NCBI GenBank assembly: GCA_030158585.1
Contig: JAOASR010000101.1
Location: 1 to 46,158 of the forward strand
Direction: 5' to 3'
Origin: Microcella sp.
GTDB taxonomy: Bacteria > Actinomycetota > Actinomycetes > Actinomycetales > Microbacteriaceae
Length of the DNA stretch: 46,158 nt
The translations under genes were made by a program, and so were the position numbers. The notes beneath the pieces were generated by a model. That model searched no databases. It was not told the origin of the DNA and worked only from the letters and a program-made list of their open reading frames with translations. Position 1 is the first letter of the stretch. Each line of letters begins with the position of its first letter. Below are positions 1,370 through 45,134 of this stretch, one piece after another.

Positions 1370-1602
1370 CACCAGTCGAACCAACTCGTGAACCGTATCC
1401 ATCGGGGAGTAGCGACCTGCTTGGTGTTCCAGGACGCCCGGCGCAGCGAGGCGTATCAACTTCGTTGCTCACAGTAGTGCACGGCCCCTCTTTCGGCACC
1501 ATCGTCATCGAGTTGTTACCGATCCGGCGCTCAGCCTGCTGCAAGAGCGGCGCACTACGGTCGCCCCGGGCGCCCTGCCCGCTCCCTCACCTGGAGAGAC
1601 CC

Positions 1603-2229
1603 ATGAGCTTCTTCGACCGCATCTTCGGCAGCCGCACTCCCGAGCCCGAGACCGCCCCGCCGCCGCCCCGCGCGCCGCGCAGCGACGACGAGCGCGCGGT
1701 CGAGCGCTACCGCTACCTGCTCGAGACGGCGCCGCCCGAGACGATCGAGAAGGTGCACGCCGAGGCCTTCGCCAAGCTCACGCCCGAGCAGCGTCGCCTC
1801 GTGTTCGAGCGCCTGAGCGCCGAGGCTCCGCAGGGCGAGGCCCCGCGCGACGACCAGCCCTCGACGCTCGCGCAGGCCGCCACCCGCTCCGAGCTGCGCC
1901 AGCCCGGCACGATGGAGCGCTCGTTCGCCGGCCCCTCGTTCGGCAGCATGATGGGCGCCTCGCTGCTCGGCACGGTCGCCGGCTACGTCGTCGCCTCGGC
2001 GCTCGTGAGCGCCTTCCTGCCGCCCCTGGACGGCGGCGGGGCCGAGGCGGGTGGCGAGGGCGACACCGGTGGCGAGGGCGACGCCGGCGATGCCGGTGCG
2101 ACGGATGCGGGCGGTGCCGACTCCGGCGCGGATGCGGGCGCCGGCGACGGTGGCGGCTTCTTCGACGCCGGTGGCTTCGACGGAGGCGGCGGCTTCGACG
2201 GCGGCGGCTTCGGCGATTTCGGCTTCTGA
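1603..2229 (+). CDS. hypothetical protein with one membrane segment and Gly/Asp-rich tail
   Basis: A 208-residue protein I do not recognise. The start ATG is supported by GGAGAG six bases upstream; a longer in-frame extension exists but would overlap the cspA leader. Residues 1-30 are Pro-rich, and residues 35-75 are charged and helical (ERYRYLLETAPPETIEKVHAE). A hydrophobic segment lies at about 110-130 (SMMGASLLGTVAGYVVASAL). The last 75 residues are almost only Gly, Asp, Ala and Phe and end GGGGFDGGGFGDFGF. One base separates it from the DUF427 gene, so the two are probably cotranscribed and coupled. A membrane-anchored protein with a flexible glycine-rich tail is the most that can be said. 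Confidence 0.7.
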   Translation: MSFFDRIFGSRTPEPETAPPPPRAPRSDDERAVERYRYLLETAPPETIEKVHAEAFAKLTPEQRRLVFERLSAEAPQGEAPRDDQPSTLAQAATRSELRQPGTMERSFAGPSFGSMMGASLLGTVAGYVVASALVSAFLPPLDGGGAEAGGEGDTGGEGDAGDAGATDAGGADSGADAGAGDGGGFFDAGGFDGGGGFDGGGFGDFGF

Positions 2230-2230
2230 C

Positions 2231-2740
2231 ATGGCCCGTCGCGACCTCCGAGCCGGCCGCATCGAGCCCGGCCCCGGGCAGGAGTCGGTCTGGGACTACC
2301 CGCGCCCGCCGCGCGTCGAGCCCGTGCACGCACGCGTCACGATCGAGCTCGGCGGCCACGTGATCGCCGACTCGACGCGCGCGGTGCGCGTGCTCGAGAC
2401 GAGCCACCCGCCCGCGTACTACCTGCCGCCGGACGACTTCGTCGACGGCGCTCTGCGCCCCGTCGAGGGCTCGACCTTCTGCGAGTTCAAGGGCCGCGCC
2501 GCCTATGCCGACGTCGTGTGCGGTCAGTCGATCGCGCAGCGCGCCGCCTGGTACTACCCGTCGCCGAGCCGCGGCTTCGAGAGCATCGCGGGCTTCGTCT
2601 CGGTGTATCCGGGCCGCATGGATCGCTGCACCGTCGACGGCGAGGTCGTGCAGCCGCAGGAGGGCGACTTCTACGGCGGCTGGATCACCGCGAACATCGT
2701 CGGGCCGTTCAAGGGAGCCGAGGGCACCTGGGGCTGGTGA
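2231..2740 (+). CDS. DUF427 domain-containing protein
   Basis: A 169-residue cytoplasmic protein of the DUF427 family (small beta-rich fold, role unknown). Diagnostic stretches are VWDYPRPPRVEP near the N-terminus, the central PPAYYLPPDDF, FCEFKGRAAYADV and, near the end, GDFYGGWITANIVGPFKG. The length agrees with the family. The ATG at 2231 follows the stop of the preceding gene by one base and has no ribosome binding site of its own, which suggests translational coupling. An in-frame upstream ATG at 2051 lies within the Gly-rich gene and is rejected as out-of-frame shadow. Confidence 0.85.
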   Translation: MARRDLRAGRIEPGPGQESVWDYPRPPRVEPVHARVTIELGGHVIADSTRAVRVLETSHPPAYYLPPDDFVDGALRPVEGSTFCEFKGRAAYADVVCGQSIAQRAAWYYPSPSRGFESIAGFVSVYPGRMDRCTVDGEVVQPQEGDFYGGWITANIVGPFKGAEGTWGW

Positions 2741-2845
2741 GCGGCACCTCCGCCTGAGCGTGCCACCTGCGCGGCTCACGTCAGCGGGTCACGCGGGCTG
2801 TGAACCTTTCGGGCGGCCGAACTGCGCCCCGGGCATCCGCCCTGG

Positions 2846-2851
2846 CACACT
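2846..2851 (+). promoter_or_regulatory. -10-like element, leaderless VIT gene
   Basis: CACACT (fits nAnnnT) is six bases before GTG 2858, the same spacing as the other leaderless-type starts in the window. There is no Shine-Dalgarno sequence before this GTG. Confidence 0.4.
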
Positions 2852-2857
2852 GACGGC

Positions 2858-3964
2858 GTGACCGAGGCGAGCCCTTCTGACGCGCCGAGCCGCGCCGACA
2901 TCCGGCGCTGGCGGCGCTACCTCGCCGACGAGCGAGCCGAGGCCGCCGTCTACCGCGACCTGGCCCGCCGTCGCGCCGGCGAGGAGCGCGCGATCCTGCT
3001 CGCGCTCGCCGACGCCGAGGGTCGTCACGAGGCGCACTGGATGTCGCTGCTGGGCGACGAGGCCGCTCGGGTTCCCGCCGTGTCGCTCCGCACGCGCATC
3101 CTGGGGTTCTTCGCGCGGCGCTTCGGCAGCGTCTTCGTGCTCGCGCTCGCGCAGCGCGCCGAGTCCCGCTCGCCGTATGAAGACGATGCGCACGCGACCG
3201 CGGCGATGGCGGCCGACGAGCGCATCCATCAGGAGGTCGTGCGCGGCCTCGCCGCCCGCGGGCGCCAGCGACTCTCGGGCACCTTCCGCGCCGCGGTGTT
3301 CGGCGCCAACGACGGACTCGTGTCGAACCTCGCTCTCGTGCTGGGCATCGGGGCGACCGGCGTGCCGGCGACGACCGTGCTCTTCACGGGCATCGCGGGC
3401 CTGCTTGCCGGAGCGCTCTCGATGGGCGCGGGCGAGTACGTCTCGGTGCGCTCGCAGCGCGAGCTGCTCGACGCCTCGACGCCCGACCCCGACGCGCACA
3501 CCGCCGTGCCGCACCTCGACGTCGACGCCAACGAGCTCGCGCTTGTCTACCGGGCGCGCGGCATGAGCGAAGGCGAGGCGCTCGCTCGCGCTCGCGAGGT
3601 CGTCGCCGAGTACGACCCGACCGTCGCCGCCGCCCGCGCCGCCGAGACGCGTGCGCGCGTCGCCCTGACCGACGAGCACGAGGCGATCGGCTCGGCGTGG
3701 GGTGCGGCGGCGTCGAGCTTCTGCTTCTTCGCGAGCGGTGCGGTCATCCCCGTCATCCCCTACCTGCTGGGGATGTCCGGCGTCGCGGCGGTCATCACGG
3801 CGGCCGTTCTCGTCGGTCTCGCGCTGCTCGTGACGGGCACGATCGTCGGTGTGCTGTCGGGGGCATCGCCGTGGCGTCGGGCCCTGCGTCAGCTCGCGAT
3901 CGGGTACGGCGCCGCTGCGGCGACGTACGCCCTCGGGCTCGCCTTCGGCACGACGCTCGCCTGA
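2858..3964 (+). CDS. rubrerythrin-VIT1/CCC1 fusion, putative Fe/Mn transporter
   Basis: A 368-residue integral membrane protein. Residues 15-125 form a ferritin-like (rubrerythrin) domain with E/ExxH features such as DERAEAAVYRDLA, ALADAEGRHEAHW and ADERIHQEVV. From about residue 145 the VIT1/CCC1 domain begins (FRAAVFGANDGLVSNLALVL, then GALSMGAGEYVSVRSQREL), with the last membrane helices at 285-365. Characterised relatives (MbfA-type and plant VIT) move Fe2+ or Mn2+ out of the cytoplasm, with the ferritin-like part sensing or oxidising the metal. Direction and metal here are inferred. It stands alone on its strand. The start is GTG, with a -10-like element six bases before it and no ribosome binding site. 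Confidence 0.9.
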   Translation: MTEASPSDAPSRADIRRWRRYLADERAEAAVYRDLARRRAGEERAILLALADAEGRHEAHWMSLLGDEAARVPAVSLRTRILGFFARRFGSVFVLALAQRAESRSPYEDDAHATAAMAADERIHQEVVRGLAARGRQRLSGTFRAAVFGANDGLVSNLALVLGIGATGVPATTVLFTGIAGLLAGALSMGAGEYVSVRSQRELLDASTPDPDAHTAVPHLDVDANELALVYRARGMSEGEALARAREVVAEYDPTVAAARAAETRARVALTDEHEAIGSAWGAAASSFCFFASGAVIPVIPYLLGMSGVAAVITAAVLVGLALLVTGTIVGVLSGASPWRRALRQLAIGYGAAAATYALGLAFGTTLA

Positions 3965-12497: not shown

Positions 12498-13976
12498 CTA
12501 GCGCGTGCGCCAGGCGGTGAGTCGCGCGAGCAGGCCGATCGCGTGCGAGAGCGCGCCGGTGCGCAGTCGGCCGCGAACATCCGCCACCGCTGCGTTCCAC
12601 AGCGCGTCACTGTAGGTCGGGTATGCGTGGGTGGCGCTCGCGATCTGACTCGTGCGCAGCCCGTGGCGCACGGCGAGCGACGCCTCGCCGAGCGACTCTC
12701 CCGCGCGAGGGCCGACGATCGTGGCACCTCGCACCCGCCCGCGACCGTCGACGACGAGCCGCGTGAAGCCAGACTCGTCGCCCTCGGCGATCGCGCGGTC
12801 GGTGTGGCTGTGGCGCACCTCGTGCACGGTGCAGCCGTGCTCGGCGGCCTCGGAGGGCAGCAGCCCCACCGCGCCGACCTCGGGGTGCGTGAACGTCACG
12901 CGCGGCACGGCGTCGCGGTCGATCGTGCGGCGCAGGCCCAGCACGGCGTTGGTCGCGGCGATGCTGCCGTTGACGCCTGCGAGGTGCGTGAACTGCGGCA
13001 GCCCGCTCACGTCGCCGGCCGCGAAGATGCGCCGGCTGCTCGTGCGCAGCGTGTCGTCGACGACGACGTGGCCGCGGTCGTCGGTGCGCACGCCCGCCTC
13101 GTCGAGGCCGAGGCCGGCGGTGCGGGGGCGGCGTCCGAGAGCGACGAGCAGGCGATCGAACGCGACCGCCTCACCGGTCGACAGGTGCAGGATGCCCGCG
13201 CCCCGGGCATCCCTGCCCTCGACCCGCACCGCCTCGACCCGTACCGCCTCGACCCGTACCGCCTCGGTCGCGAGCCGCACGTCGACTCCGTCGGCAGACA
13301 GGGCCGCGGTGATGATCGCGCTCGCGTCGGGGTCCTCCTTCGGCAGCAGCCGCTCGTTGCGCTGCACGAGGGTCACGCGCGAGCCGAGCCGCGCGAACGC
13401 CTGCCCGAGCTCGCAGCCGATCGCGCCACCGCCGAGCACGACGAGGCGCTCGGGGAGCTCGGTGAGATCCCACACCGAGTCGCTCGTGAGCACGTCGACG
13501 TCGTCGATGCCGGGCAGCGACGGCACAGTCGGTTCGGAGCCCGTCGCGATGATCGCCTGCCGGAACCGGATCGGCCGCCCGTCGATCTGGGCCATGCGCG
13601 CGCCCGTGAAGCCCGCTCGCCCGATGACCGCGAGCGCGCCGGCGGCCTCGGTCGCCTCGATCGAGTCGACGGGCTCGATCTCGTGCATGGCGCCGTGCAC
13701 GTGCCGCATGACGGCCGCGAAGTCGACGCGCACGTCGCTCGCCGTGACCCCGAGCGAGCCGGAGTGCGCGGCGGTGCGCGCGGCGTGGGCCGCGGCGATG
13801 AGCGCCTTCGAGGGCACGCAGCCCGTCCAGAGGCAGTCGCCGCCCATTCGGTGCGCCTCGACGAGCAGCGCCGTCGCGCCGAAGCTCGCGCCGGTCTTCA
13901 CGGCGACGAGGCCGGCGGTGCCGCCTCCGATCACGAGCAGGTCGACGTCGGCGGGCAGGTCGGCGAGGGCGGTCAT
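12498..13976 (-). CDS. FAD/NAD(P)-dependent disulfide oxidoreductase (MerA/Lpd-like)
   Basis: A 492-residue cytoplasmic flavoenzyme. The FAD-binding GGGTAGL lies at 17-23. The redox-active disulfide is C48-x4-C53 in GGDCLWTGCVPSKAL. The NAD(P)-binding Rossmann motif VVLGGGAIGCELGQAF starts near 180, and the C-terminal interface domain has HPEVGAVGL and HAYPTYSD in place of the HPT-type catalytic His motif. These features fit the MerA/lipoamide-dehydrogenase class, but no heavy-metal-binding domain, mer gene or 2-oxoacid dehydrogenase is near, so the substrate is open. Residues of about 239-253 are AVRVE repeated three times, from a DNA tandem repeat. The start is ATG 13976, with a -10 element six bases upstream and no Shine-Dalgarno sequence. 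Confidence 0.9.
   Translation of the reverse strand: MTALADLPADVDLLVIGGGTAGLVAVKTGASFGATALLVEAHRMGGDCLWTGCVPSKALIAAAHAARTAAHSGSLGVTASDVRVDFAAVMRHVHGAMHEIEPVDSIEATEAAGALAVIGRAGFTGARMAQIDGRPIRFRQAIIATGSEPTVPSLPGIDDVDVLTSDSVWDLTELPERLVVLGGGAIGCELGQAFARLGSRVTLVQRNERLLPKEDPDASAIITAALSADGVDVRLATEAVRVEAVRVEAVRVEGRDARGAGILHLSTGEAVAFDRLLVALGRRPRTAGLGLDEAGVRTDDRGHVVVDDTLRTSSRRIFAAGDVSGLPQFTHLAGVNGSIAATNAVLGLRRTIDRDAVPRVTFTHPEVGAVGLLPSEAAEHGCTVHEVRHSHTDRAIAEGDESGFTRLVVDGRGRVRGATIVGPRAGESLGEASLAVRHGLRTSQIASATHAYPTYSDALWNAAVADVRGRLRTGALSHAIGLLARLTAWRTR
13217..13261 (-). repeat. 3 x 15 bp in-frame tandem repeat in the flavoenzyme gene
   Basis: Plus-strand units CCTCGACCCGYACCG at 13217-13231, 13232-13246 and 13247-13261; the last two are identical. 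In the protein they give AVRVE three times, in a strand pair of the NAD-binding domain. The repeat length keeps the frame. Confidence 0.9.
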
Positions 13977-13982
13977 GCCCGA

Positions 13983-13988
13983 AGGCTA
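13983..13988 (-). promoter_or_regulatory. -10 element, leaderless flavoenzyme gene
   Basis: TAGCCT on the minus strand, six bases from ATG 13976. Confidence 0.5.
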
Positions 13989-14006
13989 CTCAGCAGGACT
14001 GTCGAA

Positions 14007-14012
14007 TACGCT
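14007..14012 (+). promoter_or_regulatory. -10 element, leaderless methyltransferase gene
   Basis: TACGCT, seven bases before GTG 14020. Its -35 zone would fall on the -10 of the divergent flavoenzyme gene, so the two promoters overlap. Confidence 0.5.
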
Positions 14013-14019
14013 CGCAGTC

Positions 14020-14724
14020 GTGCCTCGCGAACGATATTCCTCCGGCGCGCGGCTCTATGACGTGCTCTCGGCCGAGTGGCCCGTCTATCGCGTCGGCCGC
14101 ACGACCGCGATCGAGCTGCTCGCGCCGCGCGCGGGCGAGCGCGTGCTCGACCTCGGCTGCGGCACGGGGCTGAACCACGCTCTGCTCGACGCCGCCGTCG
14201 GCCCGACCGGGGCCGTGCTCGGGGTCGACCGCAGCGCCGCGATGCTCGCCGTCGCGCGCCGCCGTGCCGCCCGTCAGGGGCTGCGCACTGTGCGCGTGCT
14301 CGAGGCCGACGCGACCGCCCTCGACGTCGACGCGGCCCGCGAGGCCCTCGGCGGCCCTGCCGACGTGGTGCTCGCGACCTACACGCTCTCGATCATGAGC
14401 GACCCCGCTGAGGCCTGGCGCCGCGCCCTCGCCGTCGCCCGTCCGGGCGCACGGGTCGCGATCGTCGACATGCAGGAGCCACACGGCGCCGCCCGCCTCG
14501 TCGCTCCGCTCGCCCGGGCGTTCGCGGGCTTCGGCGGCGCCGATCTCACGGCCCGACCGTGGACGATGATCGAGAACGATGCGACGGATGTCCGTGAGCG
14601 CTCTCTGCGCGGCGGCCACATCCAGGTGCGCACCGGCATCGCTGGCTCGCACGACGTCGCCCCGCCCGCCGACCCACCTCAGCCCCCCGACCCACCTCAG
14701 CCTTCGACCCTGGAGCGTCCGTGA
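14020..14724 (+). CDS. class I SAM-dependent methyltransferase
   Basis: A 234-residue cytoplasmic methyltransferase. Motif I is VLDLGCGTGLNHALLD (about 41-56), then GVDRSAAMLAVARRRA (motif II region) and, later, LATYTLSIMSDPAEAWRRAL (motif IV). The N-terminal RLYDVLSAEWPVYRVGR resembles UbiE-like and small-molecule methyltransferases; the acceptor is unknown. The C-terminal 20 residues are a Pro-rich tail made by an imperfect 18-bp duplication (DPPQPPDPPQP). The GTG at 14020 is preferred because the long upstream reading in the same frame runs antisense through the flavoenzyme gene. It overlaps the GNAT gene by four bases. Confidence 0.85.
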   Translation: MPRERYSSGARLYDVLSAEWPVYRVGRTTAIELLAPRAGERVLDLGCGTGLNHALLDAAVGPTGAVLGVDRSAAMLAVARRRAARQGLRTVRVLEADATALDVDAAREALGGPADVVLATYTLSIMSDPAEAWRRALAVARPGARVAIVDMQEPHGAARLVAPLARAFAGFGGADLTARPWTMIENDATDVRERSLRGGHIQVRTGIAGSHDVAPPADPPQPPDPPQPSTLERP

Positions 14725-15227
14725 CCCACCCCGCCCCGAGCATCCGCCCCCTGACCGCAGCGGATGCGCCTGCGCTTGTCGCCCTCAACGACGCCGCGCA
14801 CCCCGCCGTGCCGATCACGAGCGTCGACGAGATGCGCGCCCTGCTCGAGCTCGGCGCGCTCACGCTCGGCCTCGAGCGCGAGGGTGAGCTCGTCGGCTTC
14901 GTCATCGCGATGACGCCCGGAGCCGCCTACGAGAGCGAGAACTACCGCTGGTTCGAGGCGCGCGAGGTCGGGCACGTGTACGTCGACCGCATCGTCGTCG
15001 CGGAGAGCGAGCGGGGGCGGGGCCTCGGGCCGATGCTCTACGACGCGGTGTTCGCCGAGGCGAGGCGGCTCGGACACCCCGAGGTCACGTGCGAGGTCAA
15101 TCTCGACCCGCCGAACCCGGGCAGCCTCGCCTTCCACGGCCGGCTCGGGTTCGTGCAGATCGGCACGCAGGCGACGAAGGGCGGCAGCGTGACGGTTGCG
15201 CTCATGGCGGCGCCGGTGCGCGGCTGA
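14721..15227 (+). CDS. GNAT family N-acetyltransferase
   Basis: A 168-residue acetyltransferase that uses acetyl-CoA. The pantetheine-binding motif A is RGRGLGPMLYDAVFAEARRL (about 97-116), preceded by VGHVYVDRIVVAESE. Motif B is NPGSLAFHGRLGFVQIG. The length is normal. GTG 14721 overlaps the methyltransferase stop (GTGA), so both are cotranscribed and coupled. The substrate (amine of a small molecule or protein) cannot be predicted; cotranscription with a methyltransferase suggests two group transfers in one process. Confidence 0.88.
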   Translation: MTHPAPSIRPLTAADAPALVALNDAAHPAVPITSVDEMRALLELGALTLGLEREGELVGFVIAMTPGAAYESENYRWFEAREVGHVYVDRIVVAESERGRGLGPMLYDAVFAEARRLGHPEVTCEVNLDPPNPGSLAFHGRLGFVQIGTQATKGGSVTVALMAAPVRG

Positions 15228-39472: not shown

Positions 39473-39967
39473 ATGACCGACACCATCACCCTCACGGGGC
39501 TCGTCGCCACGACCCCGCGCCACATCGTCACGAGCGAGGGGCTCGCGATCACCTCGTTCCGGCTCGCCAGCAATCAGCGCCGCTTCGATCGCGCAAAGGG
39601 GGCGTGGATCGACGGCGACACCAATTGGTACACCGTCACGAGCTTCCGGCAGCTCGGCACCCATGTCGCGAGCTCGGTGCAGAAGGGCGAGCGCGTGATC
39701 GTGACGGGCCGCGTGCGCATCCGCGAGTGGGAGAACGGCGAGAAGAACGGCACGACGATCGAGATCGACGCCGACGCGGTCGGTCACGACCTCACGTGGG
39801 GTCGGGCGACCTTCACGCGCAGCGTCGTCGTCGGCCGCTCCGAGAGCGCCGAGACTCCTGAAGCGGATGCCCCCGGCGAGCCCGTCGACGCGCTCGAGGT
39901 GCCCGACGACGCGTCCGAGCTCACGCCGCGCGTGCTCGTGGGCGAGTCGTCCGAGACTCCGTTCTGA
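39473..39967 (+). CDS. ssb: single-stranded DNA-binding protein (second type)
   Basis: A 164-residue OB-fold protein that binds single-stranded DNA. The OB domain is residues 1-110 (SEGLAITSFRLASNQRRFDR, NWYTVTSFRQLGTHVASSVQ, VTGRVRIREWENGEKNGTTI). The C-terminal 55 residues are acidic and flexible. The usual partner-binding tip (DDxIPF) is replaced by ESSETPF, keeping only the last Pro-Phe. No chromosomal rpsF/rpsR neighbours of the housekeeping ssb are present, so this is likely an accessory paralog. The AGGAGG before ATG is strong. It stops three bases from the convergent regulator gene. Confidence 0.9.
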   Translation: MTDTITLTGLVATTPRHIVTSEGLAITSFRLASNQRRFDRAKGAWIDGDTNWYTVTSFRQLGTHVASSVQKGERVIVTGRVRIREWENGEKNGTTIEIDADAVGHDLTWGRATFTRSVVVGRSESAETPEADAPGEPVDALEVPDDASELTPRVLVGESSETPF

Positions 39968-39970
39968 GCG

Positions 39971-40615
39971 TCAGCGCACGCGGATGCCGCCGCGCTGCCA
40001 CATCGTGACAGCGGCGACCCGCGGATTCGCGTTCTCTCCGGTGTCGAGACCGAGAGCGGTGAAGAGCCGCGCGAGCATGGTCTCGACGGCGCGTACCGTC
40101 GTTCCGCGGTGCTCGGCGAGAGCCCGGGTCGACGCGCCCTCCGCCAGCAGGCGGAGCACGTCGGCCTGGGCGGCCGTGACCATGGGCACGTTGTCCTCGT
40201 CGCGGCGCACGACCTCGTCGTGCTGGCCGCTGATCGAGCGGTGCACGGCGTCGATGAGGTCGTCGATCGCGCCGAGCTGCGACTTGACGAGATAGACGAC
40301 ACCGGCCGGAATGCGCTCGGGGTTCGGCACCGCGAGCTCGGGCGAGCGGTGCGAGGTGAGCACGACGAGTCCGATCCACGGATATTCGTCGGCGACGGCG
40401 CTGAGCAGATCGGCGCCTGATTCGCTCGTGCCGAAGTTCAGGTCGGTGATGAGCGCGTGCGGGTCGTTCTCTCCGACGGCCGCGAGGGCCTCCGCGACCG
40501 AGGTGGCCGTCGTGACGTCGAAGCCTCGGGCGCCCAGCCCTCCCGAGACGAGCGAGACGGTGAAGCCGTCGTCGTCGGCCACGACCACTCTCAGTGCTTT
40601 GCTGTCGGTCGTCAC
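39971..40615 (-). CDS. response regulator, LuxR-type
   Basis: A 214-residue response regulator. Receiver 1-125: acidic pocket DDD (13-15), phospho-acceptor D58 (ALITDLNFGTSESG), and Ser/Thr and Lys of the switch (VVLTSHRSPEL, VYLVKSQLG). Residues 145-205 are a LuxR-like helix-turn-helix (VTAAQADVLRLLAEGASTRA, TTVRAVETMLARLFTALGLD). The start is GTG 40615. It lies 19 bases downstream of the hybrid-kinase gene on the same strand, so it is probably the output of that phosphorelay. Target genes are unknown. Confidence 0.88.
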   Translation of the reverse strand: MTTDSKALRVVVADDDGFTVSLVSGGLGARGFDVTTATSVAEALAAVGENDPHALITDLNFGTSESGADLLSAVADEYPWIGLVVLTSHRSPELAVPNPERIPAGVVYLVKSQLGAIDDLIDAVHRSISGQHDEVVRRDEDNVPMVTAAQADVLRLLAEGASTRALAEHRGTTVRAVETMLARLFTALGLDTGENANPRVAAVTMWQRGGIRVR

Positions 40616-40634
40616 GCCTGCCCGCTTCCGTTGA

Positions 40635-43337
40635 TCATCCGTCGTTCGTCAGTGTCTGCTCGCCATGGTGTCCACGACGGGCGGAAGCGTCAAGCACTTC
40701 ACGGAGGGTCGTCAGAAGAAGGCTCGTCGTGTACGGCTTGGGCAGGAACGCGGCGATGCCCATGCCCGCGCTCCGCGAGGCCCCGCCGGCCGACGTCAGG
40801 CCGCTCGCAGCGACGACGGGAATCTCGGGGTGGTGCTCTTCCAGATAGGCGGTGGTCGCCGCGCCATCCATGACGGGCATCATCATGTCGGTGAGTACGA
40901 GCGCGACGTCCGTGTCATCGCGCTCGACGATGCCGATGGCCACGCGGCCGTTCTCGGCCGTCAGGGTGCGGTAGCCGTAGCTTTCGAGCGTGCGCGACGC
41001 GATGAGCCTGATCGTGTCGTCATCGTCGACGATGAGGATGAGCTCGCCGTCGCCGTGCGGCAGCTGGCGCGTGGGCAGCACGCCGCTTCGCGGCCCGCGT
41101 GGCTCTCCGACTACCACCGGGAGGACGACGGAGAACCGAGTTCCCTCGCCCGGTTCGCTGTAGACGCGGATCGTTCCGCCGTGGCTGCGCACGATCGTGA
41201 GCGAGCTTGCGAGACCGAGCCCCGTGCCCTTGCCGACCGACTTGGTCGTGTAGAACGGCTCGAAGATCTTCTCCTGCACCTCGGGCGTCATGCCGTGACC
41301 GGTGTCGACGACATCGACGACGACGTACCGGCCCGGGTCGAGCCGGAACAGTTCAGCCGAGAAATCGTCCTCGAGCAGCAGTGTTGAGGCTGATACCTCG
41401 AGCGATCCGCCCTCGGGCATGGCGTCGCGCGCGTTCGCGACGAGATTTGTGAGCACCTGGATCAGCTGCGTGGAGTCGCCCATGGTGTCGGGCACGTCGT
41501 CGTCGAGCTCGACGCTGAAGGCGATATCGGCGGGAAGCGAGTCGGTCGCAAAGCGGCGAACCTCCTCGAGCAGCTCGTCGATCGAGATGCGCTCGCGGCG
41601 GCCATCGACGCCTCGAGCGAACGACAGCACCTGCTGAATCATGTCGGCCCCGCGCTTGGCCGCCGCTTCCATCGTCCTCAGCAGCTCGAGTCGACTCGAG
41701 TCGGTCTCTCCGTTCTCGAGCAGCTGGATCGACATGAGCACGGGCGTCAGCACGTTGTTGAGGTCGTGCGCGATGCCACCGGCGAACGTGCCGAGGCTCT
41801 CCATCCGGGTCGCTCGGGCGCGCAGGTTCTCCTGCTTGCGCCACTCAGTGACGTCAGTGTCGACGGAGAAGATACGGTCGGGCTTCCCTTCGGCGTCGTA
41901 CAGCACCTGCCAGCGGATGTCGATGATCAGGGAGCGCCCGTCGTGCGTCACGACAGGCCGCTCCTCCGACCAGTGGCCATCGGTCAGAGCGAGCGCCGTG
42001 CACCGCTCGAAGTCGTCGACATCGATCGAGATCACGTCGCGCACGCGCTTGCCCAGCACCTCCTCCGCCTTGTAGCCGTAGAGGGCCTCGGCTGCGGGGT
42101 TCCAGTACAGGATCACCTCGTCGAGGGTGCGCACGATGATCGCGTCGCGTGCGGCGTCGATGAGGGCCGCCTGCTCGGTCACGCGACGCTGAGCCTCATG
42201 CATGCTCTGCCGGGTGAGCTCGTCAGAGGAGACATCGCGGATGTACAGAGCGATGCCGGTCGCCGTCGGGTACGCCGTGACGTCGAACCATGCATCGTTC
42301 GGTACGTCGTAGGTGCGCACCGTCGTGCGCACCTTCTCACGCGCGGTGCGCTGGTAGGCGAGCTCGAGCTCGCTGTCGGCCAGCTCGGGGAAGCACTCCC
42401 ACACGCTTCGCCCGACGACGCCGGCGAGAGGTCGGCGGATGAGTCGCTCGACCTGCGTATTGGCGTAGGTGATGCGCCAGGAGGAGTCGAGGAACATCAG
42501 GCCGTCTTCGATGGAATCGAGCGTGACATCGAGTCGCTGCTGAAGAACGGCCTCCCGCTCCTGGGCTTCGACGGCCTCCGTGACGTCCCAGATCGCACCG
42601 TGCACTGTGCGGATCGAGTCTCCGGGCGCCACTTGAATGGCCTCGCCCATCACCCGGACGAAGGTGCGCCGACCGTCGAGCCTCGTGATCTCCGACTGGA
42701 AGTCGACCGGCGTGCCCTGCTCGAAGCACGCCTCGATGGCCGCGGCGATCTCGTCTCCGTTGACCGCCTCGAAGAGCTCGATGGCGTCGGCGAGCGAGAT
42801 GGGCTTCGCGCCCTCGAAACCCAGGACGCGGCCGGCCTCCGGCGTGAGCCGCAGCTCCTGCGTCGCACGATCGACCGACCAGGCGCCGAAGGAGGCGAGG
42901 GCGCCGGCGATGCGGAGCAGGTCGTCGGCCTCGCGCTGATGCCGCTCGCGCTCCTCGACCGCGGCGATGGGGAACGCGTACCCGAGCACGGCGACGACCT
43001 CACCGTCGACGGTCACAGGGCTGTAGGTGATCTCGGCGCGGCTGGAGTCGTCGCGCGAACTGCCCTCGGTGCGGAACCGGCGCGTCTCGCCCTGCAGCGC
43101 TTTCTCGAACTCGGCGATGAGCACGCAGCGGTCGTCGGGCACGGCCCACAGGTCGAAGCGCGAGCCGACGAACGTTTCGTGGGGGATGGATCCGCGCGCA
43201 CTCAGCGCGCGATTGGCGCCACGAATCACTCCGTCGGCGTCGATGAGGAAGAGAGGATCGACGTACGCGTCGGTCAGCTGCTCCAGGGCGCGCGCGAGGC
43301 GCTCGACCTCCGTGCCGAGCCGCTCAGCGCTCGTCAC
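40635..43337 (-). CDS. four-PAS hybrid sensor histidine kinase
   Basis: A 900-residue soluble hybrid kinase. Four PAS domains lie at about 20-125, 140-255, 265-370 and 385-505 (the last begins RTLDEVILYWNPAAEALYGY). The HisKA domain has phospho-acceptor H524 in GTFAGGIAHDLNNVLTPVLM. The ATPase covers 620-745 (NLVANARDAMPEGG; DTGHGMTPEVQEKIF; GKGTGLGLASSL). A receiver domain with D817 (VLTDMMMPVMDG) sits at 767-885. The whole reads as a phosphorelay. The ATG at 43337 lies within the end of the lone receiver gene (14-base overlap). No membrane helices, so the signal is cytoplasmic; PAS ligand unknown. Confidence 0.92.
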   Translation of the reverse strand: MTSAERLGTEVERLARALEQLTDAYVDPLFLIDADGVIRGANRALSARGSIPHETFVGSRFDLWAVPDDRCVLIAEFEKALQGETRRFRTEGSSRDDSSRAEITYSPVTVDGEVVAVLGYAFPIAAVEERERHQREADDLLRIAGALASFGAWSVDRATQELRLTPEAGRVLGFEGAKPISLADAIELFEAVNGDEIAAAIEACFEQGTPVDFQSEITRLDGRRTFVRVMGEAIQVAPGDSIRTVHGAIWDVTEAVEAQEREAVLQQRLDVTLDSIEDGLMFLDSSWRITYANTQVERLIRRPLAGVVGRSVWECFPELADSELELAYQRTAREKVRTTVRTYDVPNDAWFDVTAYPTATGIALYIRDVSSDELTRQSMHEAQRRVTEQAALIDAARDAIIVRTLDEVILYWNPAAEALYGYKAEEVLGKRVRDVISIDVDDFERCTALALTDGHWSEERPVVTHDGRSLIIDIRWQVLYDAEGKPDRIFSVDTDVTEWRKQENLRARATRMESLGTFAGGIAHDLNNVLTPVLMSIQLLENGETDSSRLELLRTMEAAAKRGADMIQQVLSFARGVDGRRERISIDELLEEVRRFATDSLPADIAFSVELDDDVPDTMGDSTQLIQVLTNLVANARDAMPEGGSLEVSASTLLLEDDFSAELFRLDPGRYVVVDVVDTGHGMTPEVQEKIFEPFYTTKSVGKGTGLGLASSLTIVRSHGGTIRVYSEPGEGTRFSVVLPVVVGEPRGPRSGVLPTRQLPHGDGELILIVDDDDTIRLIASRTLESYGYRTLTAENGRVAIGIVERDDTDVALVLTDMMMPVMDGAATTAYLEEHHPEIPVVAASGLTSAGGASRSAGMGIAAFLPKPYTTSLLLTTLREVLDASARRGHHGEQTLTNDG

Positions 43338-43722
43338 GGTCGCTCCCGTTCAGTGGCTCAGCCGCGAGAAGTCGCGTGACGATCTCCTGGAACGACGTCA
43401 GATCGATCGGCTTGCGAGCGAAGCTGTCGGCGCGCGCGGCGAGAGAGGGAGCATCCTCGCCGCTCAGCAGGAGCACGCGCGGCCGCGGGTAGCGCGCGTC
43501 GAGCGCGTCGAGGCACTCGCTCGTCGTGCCGCCCGGCATGTTGACGTCGAGGATCACCAGGTCGACCGCCGAGTCGGAGTCGAGGTGGACGACCTCGCTC
43601 ACCGACCGCGCCTCGAGAACACGATGGCCGAGGCTCGTGAGCGCCATTCTGAGCACCGTGCGCACCAACGGATCATCGTCGGCGACCAGCACGGCGGCGA
43701 CAGAGACGCCCGGGTCGGCCAT
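43324..43722 (-). CDS. single-domain response regulator
   Basis: A 132-residue protein that is only a receiver domain. Acidic residues D15-D17 (VLVADDDPLV), phospho-acceptor D59 (DLVILDVNMPGG), Ser (LLLSGEDAPS) and Lys (SFARKPIDL) are present, so it should be phosphorylated. No output domain, as in CheY- or Spo0F-like relays. The start ATG has a -10 element six bases upstream; the long reading frame upstream is a shadow. It overlaps the hybrid-kinase gene by 14 bases and likely exchanges phosphate with it. Confidence 0.88.
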   Translation of the reverse strand: MADPGVSVAAVLVADDDPLVRTVLRMALTSLGHRVLEARSVSEVVHLDSDSAVDLVILDVNMPGGTTSECLDALDARYPRPRVLLLSGEDAPSLAARADSFARKPIDLTSFQEIVTRLLAAEPLNGSDRDER

Positions 43723-43728
43723 GGCCTC

Positions 43729-43734
43729 AGTGTA
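43729..43734 (-). promoter_or_regulatory. -10 element, leaderless receiver-kinase-regulator operon
   Basis: TACACT on the minus strand, six bases from ATG 43722. Confidence 0.5.
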
Positions 43735-43760
43735 GGCGCGAGGCGGCAGCCATTCGCCCC

Positions 43761-45134
43761 TCAGTTCGGGGGTCGGCCCTCGGCCAGAAGAGACAGATCG
43801 CGCGCCGCGGCGGCGAGGTGATCGAGCACCTGGCCGGTGATGGTGTCGAGTGCGCCGGGGGCCGCATCGGCCGTCGAGAAGAAGGTGAGCGCCATGACGC
43901 ACGCCGCGATGCGCCCCTGCACGGGGCCGTGCATGAGTTCGCTCAGCCGGTGCCGCTCGCGCTCGAGCGACGCCGTGTGCGCCTCCTCGAGGCGGCGCAG
44001 GTCGGCCTGCATGGCGTTGATCGTGCGCTCGTCGACGGCGTTCGCGCGCGCGAGCACGAGCGCGGCGATCACGACGGAGCACGAGGCGAGGAAGCCGCCG
44101 GCGAGGACGGGAAGCACGATCGCCCCATGCCACGTGATCGAGTCGATGCCGCTGTGCAGCATCACCCACGTGCTCACGAGGATGGCCGCACCGAGGGCGC
44201 TCAGCGTCACGCTTGACGCCCGAGAGCGCGAGACGGCCGACCACGCTGTCGAGAGACGCAGGACGACGCCGAGCGTCGCCCCGCCGGCGAGGCACGCGAC
44301 CACGATCTCGAGCGCGGCCTCGTTGCCGAAGATGCGCCACGCATCGGCGAGGATGAGGGCGATGGTCGCCATGGTGACGAGCCCGGCGGCTCGCCATGGC
44401 TGAGTGAGGTGCACGTCGAAGATCTCACGCAGAGAGGCTCGGCGCGGGCGCTCGGGCGCGGGCGGGGGAGCAGGAGCCGCCGATTCGACGAGGTCGGCCG
44501 TCTCTTCGTGCAGGCTCGACAGCCTCATGCTGATCTCGGCGAACGCGTGCACGTCGAGGCTCTGCCGCACGGCGACGAGCCGGGTGAGCAGGTCGTCGAG
44601 CACGGGAGCGACCGACTGCTGCACGGTGCCCGCGAGTCGTGACTGGATGGCCTCGCTCGACTCGGTGGCGAGGGCGGTGGCCTCCTCGAGACGCCGCTGC
44701 GTCTGCTCGAGCTCGCCGATGAGCTCGCGTCGACGCTCGATCTGCGCGATGCCGTAGACGAGGGCGGTCAGCCACACCGCCGAGACGACGAGCCACGAGC
44801 CGAGGCGGAAGAGGAGGTAGCCGGGAACCTCCGCGACGATCTCGGCCACGGTGCACCCGACGACCGCGCGGATGAGTGACGCCAGACCCCAGAGGCTCGC
44901 GACGACCCAGACGGGCAGGACAGGCTGGCGTCGACGAGCGATGAGCCCTCCGCCGACGATGACGATGCCCGTGAGCAGGTGCTGCACGGTGCCCGACAAG
45001 ACGGGCCACCACCAGTCGGGGTAGTCGGTCGTCGACTCGCGCACCAGGATGAGGCCCACCGCCGGCGGATACATCGAAAGCCAGAGCAGCCAGTGGGTCG
45101 ACCACCGACCGCCGAGGGCCTCTCGCAGGGTCAT
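43761..45134 (-). CDS. membrane sensor-like protein with H-box but no ATPase domain
   Basis: A 457-residue membrane protein. About four helices lie in residues 15-130. A coiled cytoplasmic part follows (about 130-225; GELEQTQRRLEEATALATES, LTRLVAVRQSLDVHAF), then four more helices at about 245-375. Near the end, LERERHRLSELMHGPVQGRI resembles the HisKA_3 H-box (ERxRIARELHDxV), but no ATPase motifs follow: the gene stops about 60 residues later. It could be a phosphotransfer or dimerisation partner, or a kinase that lost its ATPase domain. ATG 45134 is preferred over GTG 45137 because GGAG lies at five bases. It ends 38 bases upstream of the lone receiver gene. Confidence 0.75.
   Translation of the reverse strand: MTLREALGGRWSTHWLLWLSMYPPAVGLILVRESTTDYPDWWWPVLSGTVQHLLTGIVIVGGGLIARRRQPVLPVWVVASLWGLASLIRAVVGCTVAEIVAEVPGYLLFRLGSWLVVSAVWLTALVYGIAQIERRRELIGELEQTQRRLEEATALATESSEAIQSRLAGTVQQSVAPVLDDLLTRLVAVRQSLDVHAFAEISMRLSSLHEETADLVESAAPAPPPAPERPRRASLREIFDVHLTQPWRAAGLVTMATIALILADAWRIFGNEAALEIVVACLAGGATLGVVLRLSTAWSAVSRSRASSVTLSALGAAILVSTWVMLHSGIDSITWHGAIVLPVLAGGFLASCSVVIAALVLARANAVDERTINAMQADLRRLEEAHTASLERERHRLSELMHGPVQGRIAACVMALTFFSTADAAPGALDTITGQVLDHLAAAARDLSLLAEGRPPN

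Follow-up and report, generated by a model that had tools for sequence, protein, structure and literature searches.

Four adjacent genes on the minus strand of the window (the whole stretch of Microcella DNA analysed, 46,158 nucleotides, from a genome that is 82.61% complete) encode a membrane protein (mem), a lone receiver, a four-PAS hybrid kinase (HHK) and a LuxR-type output regulator, and this single cluster holds one ATPase among its four genes (Table 1). All four reading frames are open at the places given by the first-pass annotation. The receiver gene shares 14 nt with the HHK gene, and the remaining gaps, calculated from the coordinates, are 38 and 19 nt, so that the cluster looks like one operon. 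The mem frame is tabulated from its ATG; translation could also begin at a GTG in the same frame (45137), yielding a protein of 458 aa, and mem residues are numbered here from that GTG. Beyond the LuxR gene lies a convergent ssb-like gene (39473-39967), which is conserved at this position in all 20 Microcella loci whose stretch reaches LuxR.

Table 1. Genes of the cluster and features of mem, in positions of the window.
Feature	Position	Strand	Description
mem	43761..45134	-	membrane protein, about 8 TM; C-terminal H-box, no ATPase
mem first helical hairpin	residues 161-219 = 44481..44657	-	AlphaFold helices 161-190, 196-219; matching position lacks a conserved His
mem second hairpin	residues 395-452 = 43782..43955	-	helices 395-422, 429-452; H-box LMHGPVQGRIAACVMAL
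mem H403 codon	43929..43931	-	presumed phospho-His; H in 27/27 rows
lone receiver	43324..43722	-	Pfam Response_reg 3.4e-15; D59 codon 43546-43548
HHK	40635..43337	-	4 PAS, HisKA (H524, codon 41766-41768), HATPase_c, receiver (D817, codon 40887-40889)
LuxR-type output regulator	39971..40615	-	Response_reg 2e-9; HTH weak; D58 codon 40442-40444

Pfam recovered the receiver, HisKA and HATPase_c domains of HHK clearly, together with four PAS stretches, each where it had been claimed from the letters alone, and HATPase_c was found in HHK only, in agreement with the claim that the genes supply several His and Asp sites but one ATPase. H524 is present in 23 of 24 alignment rows and D817 in 21 of 24, the remainder being gaps, and both residues are invariant wherever a letter is present; the top NCBIfam model for HHK was the CckA one, at a score far under cut-off (285.6 of 1000 bits). 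The lone receiver was likewise correctly recognised, its D59 being kept in 24/24 rows. For the output regulator, the phospho-acceptor named at the outset was upheld (D58 in 21/21 rows), but the LuxR-type label calls for correction, as the Pfam GerE match of its helix-turn-helix was weak and under cut-off (E 0.21); the term LuxR-type is used here on the strength of that match and of whole-regulator NCBIfam matches to MctR, MadR and FixJ, all far under their cut-offs.

Matches to mem were obtained in 26 of 149 genomes searched, namely 24 of the 26 Microcella genomes (source genome included) plus G069 and G135, the G135 match spanning mem residues 125-234 only. Wherever the end of mem is visible in Microcella (23 loci, the window included), the receiver and then HHK come after it, and LuxR follows in 21 of these, the other two (L034 and L039) running off the contig; the synteny survey thus found the genes together, not scattered. 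Among Microcella the identity of mem falls to 34-65%, and conservation of the cluster across the genus in the face of such divergence argues that the arrangement is more than chance. One Microcella genome that is 99% complete (G003) gave no match to mem, LuxR or HHK, and another (G017, 81% complete) is without a mem match or a close LuxR and contains an HHK-like gene of 45% identity with an in-frame stop. A second gene of the mem family was not found in any Microcella genome at E<=0.001, split contigs aside. A second HHK-like gene (43% identity) lies past the ssb-like gene in L041 (G004, about 12996-14831) and L042 (G001, 1532-3367), and L166 (G010, about 4.9-10 kb) carries a second HHK-LuxR pair followed by a GGDEF-type protein in place of an H-box protein, its diguanylate cyclase-like motif being read by eye.

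The AlphaFold model of mem, built from 27 aligned sequences, is all-helical (pLDDT 86.3, pTM 0.73), with about eight membrane helices as judged by eye from the model and from hydrophobicity, and it contains no ATPase fold. H403 is invariant in every row of the alignment of ATPase-less forms (26 relatives plus mem), confirming the lone H-box that had been proposed. Across 21 full Microcella sequences, residues 403-419 are the best-kept stretch of the protein, with 12 of 17 residues invariant, as compared with 36 of 458 overall and 3 of the 175 in 220-394. The description of this helix as HisKA_3-like held for the conserved H-box but not for the Pfam family itself: mem has no match to HisKA_3 (PF07730) at E up to 10, and the HisKA_3 model touches just 2 of 15 H-box pieces of the mem family, at a best E of 0.0064. 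Neither Pfam Hpt (PF01627) nor any other Pfam family matched mem near a cut-off when scanned to E 10.

Mem is without a histidine-kinase catalytic ATPase domain. A family ATPase profile built from 5 complete relatives detected each of the 8 further complete relatives on which it was tried (E 2.1e-24 to 3.5e-11); the same profile does not report mem at E<=10, and none of the 27 ATPase-less rows scored well enough for inclusion (best E 0.069, 3.8 bits). The distance from the His to the end of the protein is 53-74 residues in these 27 rows, against 161-205 in complete relatives.

Foldseek returned no match at E<=0.001 for the mem model. The VIA structure matches listed are generic helical bundles, including several receptor entries, some titled as BRIL fusions; these bundles align 91-108 mem residues within 163-456 at 2.6-3.0 A, and the aligned residues presumably lie in the four-helix part of BRIL. 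Such matches would support a four-helix arrangement only. Spo0B, ChpT and Hpt are not among the structure matches listed, and the listing excludes none of the three. Judging from the alignment ranges, a single mem chain seems to suffice to close the bundle. The layout of mem repeats, a membrane part plus a hairpin occurring twice, yet an internal duplication is not claimed, since the hhalign P values of 0.014-0.021 do not improve on the 0.006-0.018 of reversed controls.

Relatives of mem were sought with an H-box profile over the family (398 genomes) and by scans of named genomes, and the best loci were opened. Two kinds were found. Complete kinases, which retain the ATPase, lie beside a gene of the same LuxR family at 12 of 12 loci, with no HHK in the stretch examined, whereas ATPase-less forms are accompanied by HHK at 29 of 29 loci (23 Microcella, L108-L112 and L055), the counts not being independent. 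A Fisher P calculated on 29 and 12 loci disregards this and is not relied on. All 29 ATPase-less forms also have a lone receiver, that of L108 being read by eye. These counts exclude N-terminal pieces at contig ends (L051, L053, L054), a short contig without a LuxR match (L115), generic kinases with an H-D-G type H-box (L119, L120, L124, L125), two loci that are the same places as L109 and L113 (L098 and L105, respectively), and L106 and L107. The complete kinases combine an HGPVQ-type H-box with an ATPase tail, HGP being replaced by HSG or HAG in L122 and L123 and by HGA in L121. At seven of their loci the LuxR neighbour is 38-47% identical to the LuxR of the cluster; at the other five (L116-L118, L122, L123) it is more distant (31-36%). 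A single genus, g105, holds both kinds: G416, G353 and G464 have ATPase-less forms with HHK, and G313, G215 and G267 have complete kinases and gave no genome-wide HHK match at E<=1e-20, a threshold at which the first three genomes do match. As a separate observation, each of the small-genome Microbacteriaceae of L115-L118 gave more than one LuxR match, and the loci opened encode complete membrane kinases in which HG replaces HD in the H-box, three of them in tandem in L115.

In a tree of the LuxR regulators, a branch with support of 96 separates 43 HHK-linked rows (one locus being included twice, as L041 and L170) from the 7 close complete-kinase rows, although the method was a quick one and the branches are long. 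Because the switch falls on a single branch of this tree, the association between ATPase loss and HHK, though strong, amounts to about one event, not 41. The H-box region of mem was aligned and profile-matched to the ATPase-bearing relatives beside related LuxR genes, which suggests that mem descends from a histidine kinase, the direction of change being drawn from the LuxR tree. The simplest order would be an ancestral LuxR plus kinase, followed by the gain of HHK and then by loss of the ATPase. An order-wide search (396 genomes) gave only weak matches outside the family (best E 2e-7), which we read as generic kinases.

Forward-acting Hpt domains are usually fused behind the receiver of a hybrid kinase. 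No match to Pfam Hpt was found at E<=0.05 in any of 15 Microcella genomes searched, control matches being obtained in 9 of 14 genomes. This result leaves room for a phosphotransferase that is diverged or of another kind. In genus g56, where BLAST of the loci did not find mem beside the HHK and LuxR genes, HHK continues in frame past its receiver into a further domain of about 110 residues at 8 of 11 loci, and at the other 3 this domain is a separate adjacent ORF (L163, L164 and L184-L192 in all). Its motif is H[RG]I[VI]GAA and its His is invariant in 11/11 domains; the model has four helices (pLDDT 89.5), the His sitting close to where the third one begins, and likewise gave no Foldseek match at E<=0.001. 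None of 10 members scanned matched Pfam Hpt, the best match of any family having an E of 0.012. Homology between this domain and the mem hairpins is not claimed (hhalign P 0.016, probability <3%), and because the sequence link to mem is not significant the g56 domain may be an independent replacement; even so, such a replacement would point to a need for a His carrier at that step. The mem counterpart of G069, beside a receiver and HHK, is a short protein of 157 aa from its ATG that keeps the H-box and has no membrane part. Together, the g56 domain and the short G069 form suggest that selection keeps the His bundle, not the membrane part.

In g56 the lone receiver was found at 3 of 3 loci with a separate domain compared with 1 of 8 fused loci (Fisher P 0.024, kinship ignored; suggestive only). 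Receivers missed by BLAST are soft absences, since the same BLAST missed the L108 receiver that is readable by eye; at the 7 fused loci where no receiver was found, the gap between HHK and LuxR, by coordinates, is shorter than a receiver gene. As the lone receiver occurs with 29/29 ATPase-less forms and was not found at 7 of 8 fused g56 loci, it may be a carrier to a separate His protein, or else a sink. In G150, in G221 and at the second HHK-LuxR pair of G010 no H-box protein lies nearby, and G150 and G221, which we take to be among the 398 genomes, have no H-box profile match among the matches listed; an HHK-LuxR pair can therefore exist without an H-box protein.

We reasoned that mem is probably a former membrane histidine kinase that has lost its ATP-binding domain and now serves as the His-phosphotransferase of a phosphorelay. 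On the best reading, a two-component system became the relay H524-D817-H403-D58, in which the four-PAS HHK would autophosphorylate on H524 and pass the phosphate to its own receiver, at D817. H403 of mem would then be phosphorylated from D817 or from the lone receiver (D59), and H403 would phosphorylate D58 of the LuxR regulator, which would act on DNA. The lone receiver would be a carrier or a side sink, and the membrane helices of mem would probably act as a gate on the final transfers, combining two signals in series. Transfer from receiver to His to receiver is argued for by the pairing of ATPase-bearing relatives with the same kind of LuxR, by the absence of Pfam Hpt matches from the 15 Microcella genomes searched and by the g56 fusion. 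The joint lack of matches to mem, LuxR and HHK in G003 is in keeping with the main reading, as is the G069 form, which retains the H-box beside the receiver and HHK. More tentatively, and with somewhat less than even confidence, we propose that a whole sensor kinase was demoted to a membrane phosphotransferase, in which a PAS signal admits the phosphate and a membrane signal at the second His passes it on, that the His-less first hairpin completes a one-chain, Hpt-like monomer, and that the g56 equivalent was absorbed into the kinase.

The pairs that lack a nearby H-box protein in G150, G221 and the G010 paralogue are also what would be expected if HHK reached LuxR by another route and mem were a phosphatase, a phosphate sink or a PhyT-like negative regulator, with H403 draining or holding the phosphate of LuxR; PhyT itself is reported to inhibit its regulator as well as to serve as a phosphotransferase (PMC5898713). 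We consider this unlikely, because the His domain of g56 sits behind the HHK receiver, in the usual forward position, and because the 15 Microcella genomes offer no Pfam Hpt as the carrier. Direct action of the HHK ATPase on H403, or a hybrid dimer of mem and HHK, appears less probable still: HHK owns the sole ATPase of the cluster, and no complete relative is at hand in the shape of a second mem-family gene in the Microcella genomes at E<=0.001, but the dimerisation helix of HHK is of the HisKA type with an AHDLNN box, as opposed to the HGPVQGR box of mem, and the mem bundle appears closed within one chain. Accordingly, of the circuit first put forward, the multi-part phosphorelay stands, and trans-phosphorylation of mem or its dimerisation with the kinase is less supported, given the LuxR-paired relatives, the absence of Pfam Hpt matches from 15 Microcella genomes and the g56 fusion. 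That H403 has no phosphoryl role, its stretch being instead the surface on which LuxR or the lone receiver docks, with mem as a sensor or tether, is very improbable, for although several neighbouring residues are conserved equally and no structure match listed identifies a phosphotransfer fold, the His persists in all 27 rows, the short G069 form included, and an invariant His is found in all 11 g56 domains too.

If it is a former kinase turned phosphotransferase, mem would resemble Spo0B, ChpT and, most of all, PhyT in its mode of action. Hpt domains (PF01627) act as phospho-His carriers between two receivers on a helical bundle, the role proposed for mem; mem differs in having no Pfam match to them and in having relatives that point to descent from an ATPase-bearing kinase. 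Spo0B is soluble, has a different hairpin sequence and retains a CA-like remnant, all of which distinguish it from mem. It is described as the phosphotransferase between the receiver Spo0F and the output regulator Spo0A (PMC11210211). ChpT, in the CckA-ChpT-CtrA system, links a PAS hybrid kinase to an output regulator by phosphotransfer, as mem would. It is reported to be a dimer resembling a histidine kinase (PMC3433190), whereas mem is a membrane protein whose bundle apparently closes within one chain. PhyT, of the Sphingomonas melonis general stress response, is described as membrane-anchored and, in the suspicion of its authors, of histidine-kinase origin, and as receiving phosphate from the lone receiver SdrG and giving it to the output regulator (PMC5898713). 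In that account the catalytic domain of PhyT is taken to be degenerate, whereas mem has none left, and PhyT is alphaproteobacterial with source kinases scattered in the genome, whereas the mem cluster includes HHK. Within the mem family, the complete kinases L113, L114, L121 and L101-L104 share a similar membrane layout (by eye) and the H-box HGPVQGR or one close to it, but keep the ATPase, with 176-205 aa from H-box to end, and have no HHK or lone receiver in the stretches examined. No description of a mem-receiver-HHK-LuxR cluster was found in the titles and abstract openings of the literature searched.

For the receiver of a hybrid kinase, an HPt protein or a pseudo-kinase is described as the His carrier that is normally required (PMC9981736), and one survey reports HPt domains in 14.49% of 635 actinobacterial species (PMC4558063). 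The cluster offers a concrete answer, for one genus, to the missing His carrier of hybrid kinases, and its relatives straddle the step from two-component system to phosphorelay; what is distinctive is that a polytopic protein appears to have lost its ATPase altogether and has relatives on both sides of the change. The ATPase loss, the recruitment of HHK, the disappearance of the membrane part and the fusion are each testable steps. If the proposed relay is true, an actinobacterial phosphorelay would read two signals in series, first through PAS domains and then at the membrane.
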